Positions 2,803 to 20,765 of a stretch of DNA of 64,000 bases are shown piece after piece. This DNA comes from Ruegeria marina (GTDB taxonomy: Bacteria > Pseudomonadota > Alphaproteobacteria > Rhodobacterales > Rhodobacteraceae), in NCBI RefSeq assembly GCF_900101475.1, contig NZ_FMZV01000007.1, positions 145,754 to 209,753 on the forward strand, written 5' to 3'. Each line of letters opens with the position of its first letter. The first letter of the stretch is position 1. The notes below the pieces were generated by a model. It saw only the letters and a list, made by a program, of their open reading frames with translations. It was not told the origin of the DNA and made no database searches. The position numbers were made by a program, and so were the translations under genes.

Positions 2803-3345
2803 ATGTCCGGCCACAGTTCCGCCGCCGCCGCCCAGACCGGAAGCAACCCTTTTCTGCGCGCTGTTGCCGCCATTTCGACCGTGGCAGGATGGTGTTCCGC
2901 CGCGATGATCGTCGCCGCCGTTCTGATCACCTGCCAGATGATCGTGATCCGGTACGTCCTGAACGGATCGACGGTCTGGCAGACCGAAGCGGTCATCTAC
3001 CTCATGATCGCCGCCACCCTGCTTGGCCTGTCCTACGTGCAACGGTTGCGGGGACATGTGAACGTCGATCTCATCCCGCTGTCCCTGCCCGCCAGGGTCC
3101 GCTTCGTTCTGGCCACTATTACCTCGGTTCTCACCATCGCAATCGTCGCCGTCATCCTGTGGTACGGGTACGAGTACTGGCATTTCGCCTGGGAGCGCGG
3201 CTGGCGCTCCGATACCGTCTGGGGGGTGAAGCTCTGGATCCCCTACCTGGCCATTCCCGTCGGCTTCGGCTTGCTGCTCTTGCAACTGGTCGCCGATTTC
3301 ATCGCCCTTGTCCTGGGCATCGAAAAACCTTTCGGATTGGAGTGA
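2803..3345 (+). CDS. dctQ: TRAP transporter small permease DctQ
   Basis: Small membrane subunit of the TRAP transporter, about 180 residues with four predicted transmembrane helices and the family segment VLNGSTVWQTEAVIYLM. The ATG at 2803 is preferred over an in-frame TTG at 2791 because GGAGGAG (2793-2799) sits just ahead of it and would overlap the TTG. Four bases separate it from dctM. Confidence 0.92.
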   Translation: MSGHSSAAAAQTGSNPFLRAVAAISTVAGWCSAAMIVAAVLITCQMIVIRYVLNGSTVWQTEAVIYLMIAATLLGLSYVQRLRGHVNVDLIPLSLPARVRFVLATITSVLTIAIVAVILWYGYEYWHFAWERGWRSDTVWGVKLWIPYLAIPVGFGLLLLQLVADFIALVLGIEKPFGLE

Positions 3346-14803: not shown

Positions 14804-15916
14804 ATGCCGATCCTCGACTACACGCATAACCTTTGGCTGGTCGCCGCATCCCTGTGCGTTGCGATGATCGCAGGCTTTACCGGGCTTTCGCTGACGCAGG
14901 GCCTGTCCAAGCGCAGCGTGAACCAGCGCAAGCTGGCGATCTCCATGGCCGCCATCGCGCTCGGCGGCGGTATCTGGTCGATGCATTTCGTGGCCATGCT
15001 GGGCCTGCAATTGCCGATCGAGTTCTATTTCGATGCAACCGTCACGCTGATTTCGGCGCTGGTCGCCATCCTGGTGGTGGGCGTCGCCTTGCTGCTTCTG
15101 CATTTCCGCCGCCGAACCCCGGCCACCCTGGCGGGCGCAGGCATCATCGTCGGACTTGGCATCATCGCGATGCATTACATCGGCATGGCCGGATTGCAGC
15201 TGTGCCGGCCGCTCTATTCCCCCGGCGGCATCACCCTGGCCGTGCTCGGGTCCTGCGCGCTCAACATCGCAGCCTTCTGGATCGCCTATGGCCGACGCAA
15301 CCACCGCAACATCCTGCTGGGAACCGTGTGTTTCGGAACCGCTGTCTTCGTCGTGCATTTCGTAGCGATCTGGGGCACCGCCTTCGTCGCCACCGGAACC
15401 GAAACCGAAGTGGGCCCGATGATCGGCAAGGAAGTCTTGGCGATAGGCGTCGTTCTTTCCAGCTTCGTGCTTTGCGCCGCCTTCCTGCTGACCGGAATAT
15501 CCTTTGTCACGCCAATACAGGCCGCTCTGGCGCCCGACACCGATATCCGGCAGCAGCCCGCCAAGGACATGATCGCACCCAAGTTCGCCCGCCAGATCCC
15601 CTACGAACAGGACGGCCGCACGCATTTCTTCGACGCCGGGTCAGTCGCCGCCATTCGCGCCGAAGGGCATTACACCCATATCTACGCGCAAGGGAAAAGG
15701 TATTTCTGCGTCTGGTCGATCACCGAGGCGGAACGCCGGCTCGATCCGGCCACCTTTACCAAGACCCACCGCAGTTACCTGGTCAATCCCGCCTATGTCG
15801 AGAGTTTCGAAAGGCTCAAGGACAATGGCATCTGCCACATGAACCTGCCCGGCCTGCCGCGCGTGCCGGTCAGCCGGGCGCGGCTCAAGGCGGTGCGCGA
15901 AGTGCTGGGCGTCTGA
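14804..15916 (+). CDS. coxC: CoxC-like MHYT sensor with LytTR DNA-binding domain
   Basis: Membrane-bound one-component regulator of 370 residues. Residues 1-235 are a seven-helix MHYT domain with the motifs SMHFVAM and AMHYIGM and a third, degraded repeat (VVHFVAIWG). Residues about 262-370 form a LytTR DNA-binding domain (AIRAEGHYTHIYAQGKRYF, FTKTHRSYLVNPAYVESF). CoxC and CoxH of the Oligotropha carboxidovorans cox cluster have this MHYT-LytTR layout, and the MHYT domain has been proposed to bind metal and sense a diatomic gas. The gene sits directly upstream of coxMSL, as in Oligotropha. Three 21-bp-phased repeats in the gap to coxM are its likely binding site. Confidence 0.88.
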   Translation: MPILDYTHNLWLVAASLCVAMIAGFTGLSLTQGLSKRSVNQRKLAISMAAIALGGGIWSMHFVAMLGLQLPIEFYFDATVTLISALVAILVVGVALLLLHFRRRTPATLAGAGIIVGLGIIAMHYIGMAGLQLCRPLYSPGGITLAVLGSCALNIAAFWIAYGRRNHRNILLGTVCFGTAVFVVHFVAIWGTAFVATGTETEVGPMIGKEVLAIGVVLSSFVLCAAFLLTGISFVTPIQAALAPDTDIRQQPAKDMIAPKFARQIPYEQDGRTHFFDAGSVAAIRAEGHYTHIYAQGKRYFCVWSITEAERRLDPATFTKTHRSYLVNPAYVESFERLKDNGICHMNLPGLPRVPVSRARLKAVREVLGV

Positions 15917-15926
15917 CCGCAAAGGG

Positions 15927-15983
15927 TTCGCATTTCGTGTGCCGCCTTTCGCATTTCGTGCACAAACCCTCTGTATTCGGGTG
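15927..15983 (+). promoter_or_regulatory. Three direct repeats with 21-bp period upstream of coxM
   Basis: TTCGCATTTCGTG occurs exactly at 15927-15939 and again at 15948-15960. A weaker third copy continues the same phase: the TTCG cores begin at 15934, 15955 and 15976, each 21 bp apart. LytTR-domain regulators bind short direct repeats on one DNA face about two helical turns apart, so this is a strong candidate target for the adjacent CoxC-like protein. The last copy could overlap the -35 region of a coxM promoter; no convincing -10 was found. Confidence 0.65.
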
Positions 15984-16060
15984 AATCCTGTCGCCGACTT
16001 GTGCGACCCATAGCAGCCTTCCCCTGCCAGAACTCGGCCTTGCAGGGGAGGACAAGCAAG

Positions 16061-16915
16061 ATGATACCGGCGGCGTTCGACTATTATCGGCCAAAGGACA
16101 TGGGCGGTGTGATCGCCCTGCTACAGGAACACGGCGACGATGCGCGCGTCATGGCGGGCGGGCACAGCCTGATCCCGATGATGAAGCTGCGCATGGCCGA
16201 AATCGCGCATTTGATCGACTTGCAGGATGTCGCTGGCCTGGACGGGATTACCGTTGAAGGCGGCCGGATCACGCTGGGCGCCATGGTCACACAGCATCAG
16301 ATCATCGACAGTGCCGCACTTCTTGCCGCGGCCCCGATCCTGCGCGAGGCGGCCTTGCAGATCGCCGATCCGCAGGTGCGCTACATGGGAACGGTCGGCG
16401 GCAATGTCGCCAATGGCGACCCGGGCAACGACATGCCGGGGTTGATGCAATGCCTCGACGCCACATTCACGCTGGTCGGACCAGATGGCAGCCGCGAGGT
16501 CGCGGCCCGCAGCTTCTATCACGCCGCTTACATGACCGATCGGGACGACAGCGAAGTTTTGACCTCAGTCAGCTTCGCCGCACCGAGGGGCGGCTATGCC
16601 TACGAAAAGCAGAAGCGCAAGATCGGCGACTATGCCACCGCGGCCGCTGCGGTGCAGATCGAGAAGAACGGCGATGTCTGCGCAAGCGCATCCATCGCGA
16701 TGACCAACCTCAGCGATACACCAGTCTGGTCGAAGGCGGCCAGCGCCGCACTGGTCGGCACCACTGTGGATGACGCGGCCATCGCCGCCGCTGTTGCCGC
16801 CATGCAGGCGGACATCGAACCGGTCGAGGACAATCGCGGCCCCGCCGCTTTCAAACGCCACGCCGCCGCAACCGTGCTGACCCGCGCCATCCGCCGCGCC
16901 TGGGATCGCGCGTAA
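16061..16915 (+). CDS. coxM: Carbon monoxide dehydrogenase medium (FAD) subunit CoxM
   Basis: FAD-binding subunit of aerobic CO dehydrogenase, 284 residues; it passes electrons from the iron-sulfur subunit toward the respiratory chain. The two FAD-pyrophosphate motifs are intact: AGGHS at residues 32-36 and TVGG at 111-114, the same positions as in the Oligotropha enzyme. The ATG at 16061 follows GGGGAGGA; twenty upstream in-frame codons lack support. First gene of the coxMSL structural set. Confidence 0.96.
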
Positions 16916-16926
16916 GGAGGAATGAG

Positions 16927-17421
16927 ATGCCCAAGAAGATGCATATCGAACTGACCGTGAACGGCAAGTCCCATGAATTCCTCGCCGAACCGCGCGAGTT
17001 GCTGATCCACACTCTGCGCGAAAGGTTGAACCTGACCGGCCCGCATATCGGCTGCGAAACCTCGCATTGCGGCGCCTGCACGGTGATCGTGAATGGCAAG
17101 TCGGTCAAATCCTGCACCATGTTCGTGGCCCAGGCCAACGGCGCGGACCTGACCACGATCGAGGGGCTTGGCACACCGGACGCGCCACATGTGCTGCAAA
17201 CCGCGTTCCGCGAGCATCACGGGCTGCAATGCGGCTTTTGCACGCCGGGCATGATCACCCGCGCCAGCAAGCTGCTGGAGGAGAACCCCAACCCGACCGA
17301 AGAAGAGATCCGTTTCGGCATGGCCGGCAATCTCTGCCGCTGCACGGGCTATCAGAACATCGTGAAATCCATCCTTGCCGCTGCAAGCGAGCTGAACGCC
17401 GCGAAGGAGGCCGCAGAATGA
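16927..17421 (+). CDS. coxS: Carbon monoxide dehydrogenase small (2x[2Fe-2S]) subunit CoxS
   Basis: Iron-sulfur subunit of 164 residues. The plant-ferredoxin-like N-terminal domain binds the distal cluster with C43, C48, C51 and C63 (CETSHCGAC...C). The helical C-terminal domain binds the proximal cluster with C102, C105, C137 and C139 (QCGFC...CRC). All eight ligands are present. Its TGA overlaps the coxL ATG (ATGA), consistent with equimolar synthesis. Confidence 0.97.
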
Positions 17422-19835
17422 ACGACATGACCCCCGAAAGAGAAGAGCGCGTCGCCGGCCTCAAGGGCCTTGGCTGTTCGCGCAAGCGCGTCGAGGATGC
17501 CCGGTTCACCCAGGGCAAGGGCAACTATGTCGACGACCTGAAACTGCCCGGCATGCTGCACGGTGACTTTGTACGCTCGCCCTATGCCCATGCCCGCGTG
17601 AAATCCATCAACACCGAGGCCGCGATGGCGCTTGACGGTGTCGTGGCAGTGCTGACGGCCGCCGATCTGGCCCCGCTTGGCCTGCACTGGATGCCAACAC
17701 TGGCCGGCGACAAGCAGATGGTGCTGGCCGACGGCAAGGTGCTCTTCCAGGGGCAGGAGGTCGCCTATGTCATCGCGCGCGACCGCTATGTCGCCGCCGA
17801 CGCGGTCGAACTGGTAGAGGTCGAGTACGAGGAACTGCCGGTTCTGACCGACCCGTTCGAGGCGTTGAAATCCGATGTCGTCCTGCGCGAGGATCTCGAT
17901 CCGGCCGCGCCCGGCGCCCACGGCCCGCGCAAGCATCACAACCATATCTTCACCTGGGAAGCCGGGGACAAGACCGCCACCGAACAGGTATTCGCCGAGG
18001 CAGACGTGGTGGCCGAGGAGATGATCTATTACCATCGCACCCACCCCTGCCCACTGGAAACCTGCGGCTGCGTCGCGTCGATGGATAAGGTGAACGGCAA
18101 GCTGACGCTGTGGGGCACCTTCCAGGCGCCCCATGCGATCCGCACCGTGGTCTCGCTGATCTCGGGGATAGAGGAACACAACATCCGCGTGATCTCGCCC
18201 GATATAGGGGGCGGGTTCGGCAACAAGGTCGGCGCTTATGCCGGTTACGTCTGCTCTGTCGTCGCCTCGATCGTCACCGGCCAGCCGGTGAAATGGGTCG
18301 AGGACCGGATGGAAAACCTGATGACCACCGCCTTTGCCCGTGACTACTGGATGCAGGGCAAGATCGCCGCCACGAAGGAAGGCAAGATCACCGGCCTGTG
18401 GTGCCACACCACCGCCGACCATGGCGGGTTCGACGCCTGCGCCGACCCGACCAAGTTCCCGGCCGGGTTCATGAACATCTGCACCGGCTCCTACGACATC
18501 CCCACCGCCTATCTGGCCGTTGACGGTGTCTATACCAACAAGGCGCCCGGCGGCGTGGCCTATCGCTGTTCCTTCCGGGTGACCGAAGCGGCGTATTTCA
18601 TCGAGCGGATGATCGAGGTTCTGGCGATCGAGCTGAAGATGGATGCAGCCGAGTTGCGCCGCATCAATTTCATCCGCAAGGACCAGTTCCCCTACCAGTC
18701 CGCGCTGGGGTGGGAATACGACTCGGGCGACTATCACACCGCCTGGGACAAGGCGCTGACCGCCGTCGGCTATGACGCGCTGCGCAAGGAACAGGCGGAA
18801 CGGGTCGAGGCGTTCAAACGGGGCGAAACCCGCAAGCTCCTGGGTATCGGCCTGACCCATTTCACCGAGATCGTCGGCGCCGGCCCGGTCAAGAACTGCG
18901 ATATCCTGGGCCTCGGCATGTTCGACAGCTGCGAGATCCGCATTCACCCGACCGGCAGCGCCATCGCCCGGCTGGGAACCATCAGCCAGGGCCAGGGCCA
19001 CGCGACCACCTTTGCCCAGATCCTCGCCAGCGAGATCGGCATCCCGGCGGATTCGATCACCATCGAGGAAGGCGACACCGACACGGCGCCCTACGGTCTT
19101 GGTACCTATGGCAGCCGCTCGACCCCGGTTGCCGGTGCTGCAAGCGCCATGGCAGGCCGCAAGATCCGCGCCAAGGCTCAGATGATCGCGGCCTACCTGC
19201 TCGAGGTTCACGACGACGACGTCGAATTCGATGTCGATCGCTTCGTGGTCAAGGGCGCGCCCGAGCGGTTCAAGACGATGAAGGAAATCGCCTTTGCCGC
19301 CTATAACCAGGCGATTCCGGGCATCGAACCGGGTCTTGAGGCGGTCAGCTACTACGACCCGCCCAACATGACCTATCCGTTCGGGGCCTATATCTGCGTC
19401 ATGGAGATCGATGTGGATACCGGCGAGCATCAGATCCGCCAGTTCTATGCGCTGGACGACTGCGGCACCCGGATCAACCCGATGATCATCGAAGGCCAGG
19501 TCCACGGTGGCCTGACCGAGGCGCTGGCCATCGCGATGGGTCAGGAAATCGCCTATGACGACATGGGCAACTGCAAGACCGGGACACTGATGGACTTCTT
19601 CCTGCCGACCGCATGGGAGACGCCGCATTACACCACCGATCACACGGTCACGCCCAGCCCGCACCATCCGATCGGCGCCAAGGGTGTGGGCGAAAGCCCC
19701 AACGTGGGCGGTGTCCCGGCCTTCTCGAACGCGGTACATGATGCGTTCCGCGCCTTTGGCCTGCGGCAAAGCCACATGCCACATGATCATTGGCGGATCT
19801 GGAAAATCGCCGATGATCTGGGCCTGCACGGCTGA
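17418..19835 (+). CDS. coxL: Form I carbon monoxide dehydrogenase large (Mo-Cu) subunit CoxL
   Basis: Catalytic subunit of 805 residues that oxidises CO to CO2 at a Mo-S-Cu centre with molybdopterin cytosine dinucleotide. The active-site loop reads AYRCSFR, the form I signature, with the copper-binding Cys at residue 384; form II enzymes have AYRGAGR instead. The base glutamate is E759 in GVGESP. Both lie 4 residues below the Oligotropha numbering (C388, E763), so the alignment is nearly gapless. The ATG overlaps the coxS stop. A hairpin follows before coxD. Confidence 0.97.
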
Positions 19836-19889: not shown

Positions 19890-20765
19890 ATGAGCTGGAC
19901 CGATCTGCAATCCGATATGGCAAAACAGGGCTACGTCGCCTCCGACGACCTCGCGATGGCCGTGCATCTGGCGCTGATGCTGGGACGTCCCCTGTTGATC
20001 GAAGGCGCGGCGGGCGTCGGCAAGACCGAGATCGCGCGTGTGCTGGCTGCCATGCGCCAGACTCAATTGATCCGGCTGCAATGTTACGAAGGGCTGGATG
20101 CCGCGCAGGCCATCTATGAATGGAACTATCAGCGACAGTTGCTGGCCATCCGCGCCGCGGCAGAGGACGGCCAGACCGGGCGCGCGGTCGAGGATCGGCT
20201 GTTCTCCGACGAGTTCCTGCTGGAACGTCCGCTGCTGAAAGCGATCCGCCAGACGGAACCGCCGGTGCTCCTGATCGACGAGATCGACCGGGCGGATGAA
20301 GAGTTCGAAGCCTATCTTCTCGAAATTCTGGCCGACTACCAGATCACGATCCCCGAGATGGGTACAATATCAGCGACCACGCGCCCGGTGGTGATCCTGA
20401 CCGCCAACGGCACACGCGACCTGTCGGACGCACTGCGACGGCGGTGCCTCTATGCGCATGTGGACTATCCCGATCGCGCAACCGAACTGGCCATCCTGCG
20501 CGCGCGACAACCGGGGATCGAGGCGGTGCTGGCCGGCCAGATCGTCGGGTTCGTGCAATCCTTGCGCAAGGAAGAGCTGGAGAAAACCCCCGGCATCGCC
20601 GAGATGCTCGAATTTGCCGCTGCCCTGATGGGGCTCGGCCTGTCCGACATTACCGGCGATCCCGTCGCGTTGCAGGCGGCCCTTGCGACCTTGCTGAAAA
20701 CCGAAACCGACCGGGCAAACATCACGACCGAGGTGGCCCAGCGGCTGGCGGGCCGCGCCGCATGA
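19890..20765 (+). CDS. coxD: CoxD, MoxR-type AAA+ ATPase for Mo-Cu cofactor maturation
   Basis: AAA+ chaperone-like ATPase of 291 residues, with Walker A GAAGVGKT at residues 39-46, Walker B LLIDEID and a conserved arginine-finger region (DALRRRCLYAHVDYP). In Oligotropha, CoxD is a membrane-associated ATPase needed to sulfurate the molybdenum and complete the [MoCu] site. The ATG at 19890 is taken as start; a 14-residue extension to 19848 overlaps the intercistronic hairpin. Its stop overlaps the coxE start (ATGA). Confidence 0.93.
   Translation: MSWTDLQSDMAKQGYVASDDLAMAVHLALMLGRPLLIEGAAGVGKTEIARVLAAMRQTQLIRLQCYEGLDAAQAIYEWNYQRQLLAIRAAAEDGQTGRAVEDRLFSDEFLLERPLLKAIRQTEPPVLLIDEIDRADEEFEAYLLEILADYQITIPEMGTISATTRPVVILTANGTRDLSDALRRRCLYAHVDYPDRATELAILRARQPGIEAVLAGQIVGFVQSLRKEELEKTPGIAEMLEFAAALMGLGLSDITGDPVALQAALATLLKTETDRANITTEVAQRLAGRAA

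Follow-up and report, generated by a model that had tools for sequence, protein, structure and literature searches.

Conserved 21-bp-phased repeats upstream of coxM as a predicted operator of the membrane CO sensor CoxC in Ruegeria marina

Genes and repeats of the coxC-coxM locus

The window, a 64,000-nucleotide stretch of Ruegeria marina DNA (contig NZ_FMZV01000007.1, positions 145,754 to 209,753), carries a set of cox genes preceded by a coxC-type gene. The coxC-type gene (14804..15916, + strand) codes for a 370-aa protein in which an MHYT membrane sensor (PF03707, 111 bits) is fused to a LytTR domain (PF04397, 61.1 bits); these two were its only Pfam matches, and no haem-binding sensor domain was among them. 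By alignment, the protein was 32% identical to CoxC of Afipia. Downstream on the same strand are coxM (16061..16915; FAD_binding_5 and CO_deh_flav_C), predicted to be the first gene under the operator described below, coxS (16927..17421; Fer2 and Fer2_2), coxL (17418..19835; MoCoBD_1 and MoCoBD_2) and a gene for a coxD-like AAA ATPase (19890..20765; AAA_5). The translation of coxL contains AYRCSFR, which we take to be the form I signature.

The CoxC family is characterised by an MHYT domain with three M-H-Y/F motifs and by a LytTR domain at the C terminus. The three MHYT motifs of the window CoxC were MHF, MHY and VHF. The third one (15353-15373, residues 184-190) has lost its methionine, and VHF was likewise found in 71 of 90 loci; the histidine of this motif was invariant across six aligned proteins. 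Afipia CoxC has MHY at the third motif instead of VHF, and the metal site may be changed by this difference. A search of the PDB for a solved structure gave no sequence relative at E 0.01.

The 144-bp gap between coxC and coxM (15917-16060) contains three repeats. The first-pass annotation had described an exact repeat occurring twice 21 bp apart and a weaker third copy in the same phase, located between an MHYT-LytTR gene and coxM. We confirmed all of these: TTCGCATTTCGTG was present at 15927-15939 and 15948-15960 with a start offset of exactly 21 bp, the third copy had the core TTCGGGTG at 15976, and the gene upstream of the gap was supported as coxC by Pfam. TTCG was found in all three copies (15934, 15955 and 15976), and each of the two 21-bp steps corresponds to about two helical turns. 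The TTCGCATTTCGTG pair was the sole exact 13-mer pair at an offset of 19-23 bp in the window, in which 0.04 such pairs are expected from a first-order Markov sequence of the same length, and Markov shuffling of the 144-bp gap gave no such pair in 20,000 rounds.

Three operator copies on the + strand were predicted from these repeats. The distal copy 1 (15928..15941, TCGCATTTCGTGTG) scored 15.7 bits. The proximal copy 2 (15949..15962, core TTCGTGCA) scored 24.0 bits, which made it the strongest copy and the top-scoring site of the entire window, and its GCA was placed 110 bp 5' of coxM. Copy 3 (15970..15983) was weak, and its support in Roseobacter-type gaps was weak as well, with 7/300 and 22/300 permuted consensus controls matching the observed similarity. 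A TTNNNG core was present in all three window copies, and the full TTNNNGCN motif in one of them (TTCGTGCA). The RcoM-type motif TTCNNGCA also fitted one copy in full, while its TTCNNG part was found in all three.

When the 5-Mb genome was searched with the strict pattern GCANNTCGTGN{9,12}GCANNTCGTG, the only site was the one in the coxC-coxM gap, and the reversed control matched nowhere. Allowing three mismatches at the 21-bp phase added one more site (L169). A wider regulon in this genome was rejected from these results.

An 11-bp inverted repeat, TCCCCTGCCAG/CTTGCAGGGGA (16020..16049, + strand), is located directly 5' of the coxM ribosome-binding region, and could form an RNA hairpin in the coxM leader. 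Inverted repeats of the type GCATAC-n-GTATGC were also observed about 49-64 bp past the start of the proximal copy in several Roseobacter-type gaps (L090, L094, L100).

Conservation and position of the repeat pair

CoxC homologues were collected from 101 relatives, of which 27 had a match, and from named genomes, for which 80 loci were kept of 146 confirmed. In 96 loci, coxM was found within 400 bp downstream of coxC, which gave 94 distinct gaps, among which some differ only slightly. The conserved unit derived from 144 sites in these gaps was [TG]CGCAnTTCGTGC[AG], i.e. [GT]CGCAnTTCGTG[CA][AG]. A pair was counted when its summed score exceeded 20 bits, with only spacings of 20 and 21 bp tried. 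The first-pass annotation had named a lack of phased repeats in other coxC-coxM gaps as an outcome that would speak against it; the result was in its favour, with a phased pair present in 90 of the 94 distinct gaps, 28 at 20 bp and 62 at 21 bp. The scoring matrix was derived from these same Roseobacter-type gaps, so the count describes them and is not a test. In 81/94 gaps, the weaker member of the pair exceeded 8 bits on its own. The pair fell below the 20-bit threshold in the remaining four (L019, L020, L085 and L088); a softer matrix detected a weak distal copy in L085 and L088 and a 14.5-bit pair in L019.

Because of the origin of the matrix, only distant loci serve as independent tests. 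We scored both strands of the entire locus for a set of 24 mostly distant loci, 19 of which had coxM within 400 bp. The set overlaps in part with others: L147 and L164 share one gap, and L018-L020 were already included in the earlier set. Here, too, the repeats recurred: in 18 of the 19 loci, no pair anywhere scored higher than the one in the gap, and L159 failed with a score below zero. One of the 18, L020 (also L142), had a pair of 7.1 bits despite a CoxC-like gene upstream of coxM, which was too weak to count. By eye, third cores of the TNGTGC type were seen at about +20 in many of the distant gaps, where the matrix scored them low (6.3 to -12.1).

The strict pattern matched in 13 of the 101 relatives, and 11 of these matches were 5' of coxM. 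The other two (G049 and G053) lacked coxC as well as coxM in the stretch examined; they fit background, because the reversed control also matched in 6 genomes.

The position of the pair followed coxM. In the 90 gaps, the proximal copy was found at a median of 109 bp from coxM (10-90% range, 105-117), and 86 of them were within 99-119 bp. The spread of this distance had an sd of 9, against 52 for the gap length. In the eight gaps longer than 200 bp, the pair stayed with coxM and was farther from coxC, at a distance to coxM of 108-128 bp for seven of them and of 177 bp for L018. In five clusters coxC was displaced (by 2.5 kb in L050, 1.7 kb in L072, 3.8 kb in G011 and 11 kb in G325; the fifth is G457, whose 11-kb locus around coxC, L079, did not contain coxM), and in all five the pair was still 104-150 bp 5' of coxM. 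Exceptions in coxM distance were L019 (198 bp) and L174 (328 bp). In 35 of the 90 clusters (e.g. L014 and L101), the distal copy started within the terminal codons of coxC, where CoxC ends with residues such as GAIRAT; in these loci, the 3' end of the sensor gene therefore also serves as the site that its product is predicted to bind.

The pair also co-occurred with CoxC-type genes. We compared 23 coxM-like loci, 15 with a CoxC-like gene upstream (L123, L126, L141 and L143 from the earlier gaps; L175, L178, L179 and L180 shared with the distant set) and 8 without a CoxC gene beside coxM. A pair above 8 bits was found in 14 of the 15 gaps with the upstream CoxC-like gene. In 13 of the 15, a pair above 8 bits within 320 bp of coxM was the best of the locus (lowest 8.5 bits, L179). 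The fourteenth was L174, where no pair was as close as 320 bp to coxM, but the longer gap had three phased copies with a 19.9-bit pair and steps of 20 and 21 bp. Among the eight loci without CoxC beside coxM, seven had no pair, and the eighth, L177 in genome G325, had both a pair and a CoxC gene 11 kb off. Three of the seven pair-less loci (L144, L145 and L184) had an identity of only 31-38% with the queries and may code for other enzymes; in a fourth, L183, where no CoxC was seen, CoxC may lie past the edge, because just 298 bp upstream were covered. L162 had a CoxC-like gene; the stretch examined contained no coxM and no pair.

Upstream of coxC itself, no conserved copy was found in 350 bp at the 94 loci scanned (best 6.5 bits, median -6.4), and coxC is seemingly not under the repeat motif for this reason. 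A weak TTGCAGTTCGCGCTTT upstream of the window coxC (2.5 bits) had, among the 25 best sites listed, a counterpart in the close relative L002 alone. Autoregulation of coxC via the same motif was rejected.

The array in Afipia and in rhizobial plasmids

In Afipia carboxidovorans OM5, CoxC represses PcoxB by binding to a set of three direct repeats at this promoter; CO with copper relieves the repression, the basis of which was given as overlap with the -35 box (PMC11347149, accessible part). When the 13 kb of the Afipia pHCG3 locus was scored, the best pair (18.7 bits) was found in the coxC-coxM gap rather than at PcoxB. The array in this gap (L146, 7223-7280) consisted of TTCGTGCA, TTGGTGAC and CTGGTGCG at 20-bp steps, upstream of a TTGAAT element. 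As judged from the sequence, it is apparently an unreported copy of the predicted coxM operator. The accessible parts of PMC11347149 and PMC13203968 and the other literature searched gave no mention of a coxM operator, which is not proof of its absence from the literature.

The PcoxB pair scored 14.5 bits, and ranked second (next 6.7) if spacings of 20 and 21 bp were tried and third if 19-22 bp were tried, behind a 16.0-bit pair with 22-bp spacing, which is located at 3098 within an annotated upstream gene. Read in the register of the coxM unit, PcoxB has TTCATG, TTGGTG and TTTGGG at steps of 21 and 20 bp. The published repeats, which we deduced from the mutant-primer substitutions on the plasmid sequence, are TTACCGCC, TTTGGGCA and TTGCGGCA, and the third one begins one base past TTTGCGGC by plasmid positions. 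Their starts are 29 and 26 bp apart; the spacers are therefore 21 and 18 bp long, matching the '18-21 bp' stated in the accessible part of PMC11347149. In this comparison the published repeats look out of register. The published EMSA, as far as it is described there, fits both registers, because the repeat-I mutation also alters the near-invariant CGC G of the second copy. Against the new register, the cloned promoter starts inside the first copy and cuts its CG, yet it was repressed; moreover, the third published repeat lies outside the three sites of the new register, and its loss abolished the last weak binding. CoxB relatives were rare, being found in 2 of 385 genomes and in 9 plasmid records including two of Afipia.

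CoxC-like genes were also found in Sinorhizobium meliloti BL225C and on two Rhizobium leguminosarum plasmids, with no cox genes in the stretch examined. In these three plasmid loci (L149, 5001-7016; L166, 3001-5049; L168, 3001-4999), a triple array of TTCGTGC type was placed directly 3' of the CoxC-like gene and was followed by a short EAL-like ORF. The array was, for example, TTCGTGCA-TTCGTGCG-TTCGTGCC, with steps of 21 and 19 bp in L149, the same in L168 and imperfect in L166. With the cut-off at 31.3 bits, the EAL-like ORFs scored 43.8, 38.9 and 28.8 bits, so that the one in L168 fell short; none of the matches extended beyond position 160 of the 236-position profile. These loci suggest that c-di-GMP genes of rhizobia may be under the control of MHYT-LytTR sensors.

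Taken together, a combined reading may be proposed, which we favour slightly: the gap would contain the ancestral operator of the CoxC family, made of three CGCAnTTCGTGC LytTR sites at about 20-21 bp, the Afipia coxM operator would be an unreported case of it, the PcoxB repeats would have been assigned in the wrong register, with TTCATG, TTGGTG and TTTGGG as the true sites, and rhizobia would have re-used the module of sensor and operator for an EAL-domain (c-di-GMP) gene. For the CoxC operator that has been studied by experiment, this suggests that a second promoter and another register merit re-examination.

Proposed control of coxM by CoxC and comparison with known systems

We put the probability that CoxC binds the coxM-proximal repeats and controls coxM at roughly 70%. 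This estimate draws on the position and phase of the repeats, how rare they are in the genome, their conservation, the nearly constant spacing from coxM and the co-occurrence with CoxC-type genes. In the predicted mechanism, the LytTR domain of the membrane CO sensor CoxC would dock on the 21-bp-phased repeats 5' of coxM, and up to three LytTR domains, at two strong sites and one weak site, could occupy one face of the DNA two turns apart. Docked CoxC is predicted to keep coxMSL off until CO arrives, with repression borrowed from Afipia. By the same analogy, CoxC would let go of the DNA once CO, with copper, is at its MHYT domain, so that the coxM promoter becomes free and coxMSL can be transcribed. 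The interpretation in the first-pass annotation, that the repeats are the binding array through which the sensor controls CO dehydrogenase, largely holds.

A duplication by chance or mutation without any function has a negligible probability. Slippage can give rise to short direct repeats, but the conservation data contradict this origin, as the pair is kept in 90/94 gaps at a near-constant distance from coxM and was reproduced in 0/20,000 gap shuffles. It is also improbable that CoxC is a mere neighbour and that the site is bound by a different LytTR protein in the cell, similar to RcoM or CoxH. The likeness of the RcoM and CoxC cores, stated as TTCNNGCA for RcoM1 and TTNNNGCN for CoxC in the accessible part of PMC11347149, speaks for such a protein. 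Against it, the site occurred with CoxC-type genes in 14/15 loci and was absent from 7/8 loci without one beside coxM, and it accompanied the CoxC-like gene to the EAL-like ORF in loci that lack cox genes nearby.

As for the direction of control, CoxC might bind the repeats as a CO-dependent activator of coxM, like RcoM and most LytTR proteins, which is possible with a clearly smaller likelihood; since it shares the binding step with the preferred explanation, the odds of the two overlap. A consensus scan found no sigma-70 promoter downstream of the repeats. Among common promoter placements in the 90 gaps, the best put the -35 inside the proximal copy and matched 5.3 of 12 bases on average, which was too weak, against means of 3.0 and 2.7 of 12 bases over all placements. 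The lack of a recognisable -35 box under or past the repeats suits a promoter that needs an activator, as does the position of the Afipia coxM array upstream of the TTGAAT element. In addition, binding upstream of -35 with activation as the outcome is stated for RcoM1 and the majority of LytTR regulators (PMC11347149, accessible part). On the other side, the sole CoxC tested represses PcoxB and is released by CO, according to the same source. By this analogy, repression of coxM by CoxC is more likely than activation.

Marine bacterial CO oxidation is a large sink for oceanic CO (PMC13203968, accessible part). If CoxC acts as predicted, the conserved sequence would explain the switching of CO dehydrogenase in Roseobacters, and the repeat unit could be used to predict which genes respond to CO wherever a genome codes for a CoxC-type sensor. 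Binding of three repeats by CoxC was already published for another promoter; new here, from sequence comparison, are the predicted coxM operator, its unit and phase, the overlap with the coxC end in 35/90 clusters and the apparently unreported copy in Afipia.

AgrA-type regulators are response regulators, and the AgrA core is different from the core in the window. Canonical LytTR operators are direct repeats of about 9 bp placed 10-13 bp apart (PMC11347149, accessible part), therefore about two DNA turns from start to start, and usually form a pair, whereas the window has three copies. According to the description in that source, the RcoM1 operator of Paraburkholderia xenovorans consists of three TTCNNGCA direct repeats and controls aerobic cox genes; its spacers of 12-13 bp therefore give a phase of about 20-21 bp, like that of the window. 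The first-pass annotation had likened the TT-nnn-G spacing of each core to that of RcoM sites, and the RcoM1 repeat TTCNNGCA compared with window copy 2, TTCGTGCA, fits this likeness. RcoM1, however, is an activator with a haem sensor domain, whereas the window regulator is a membrane MHYT protein. Afipia PcoxB resembles the window site in having an MHYT-LytTR regulator, direct repeats with TTNNNG cores and a cox-gene promoter. It differs in that the published site precedes coxB at the cluster's 5' end and has repeats whose starts, as deduced from the mutant primers, are 29 and 26 bp apart, whereas the window site is between coxC and coxM with a 21-bp phase and has a unit, CGCAnTTCGTGC, longer than the published PcoxB repeat.
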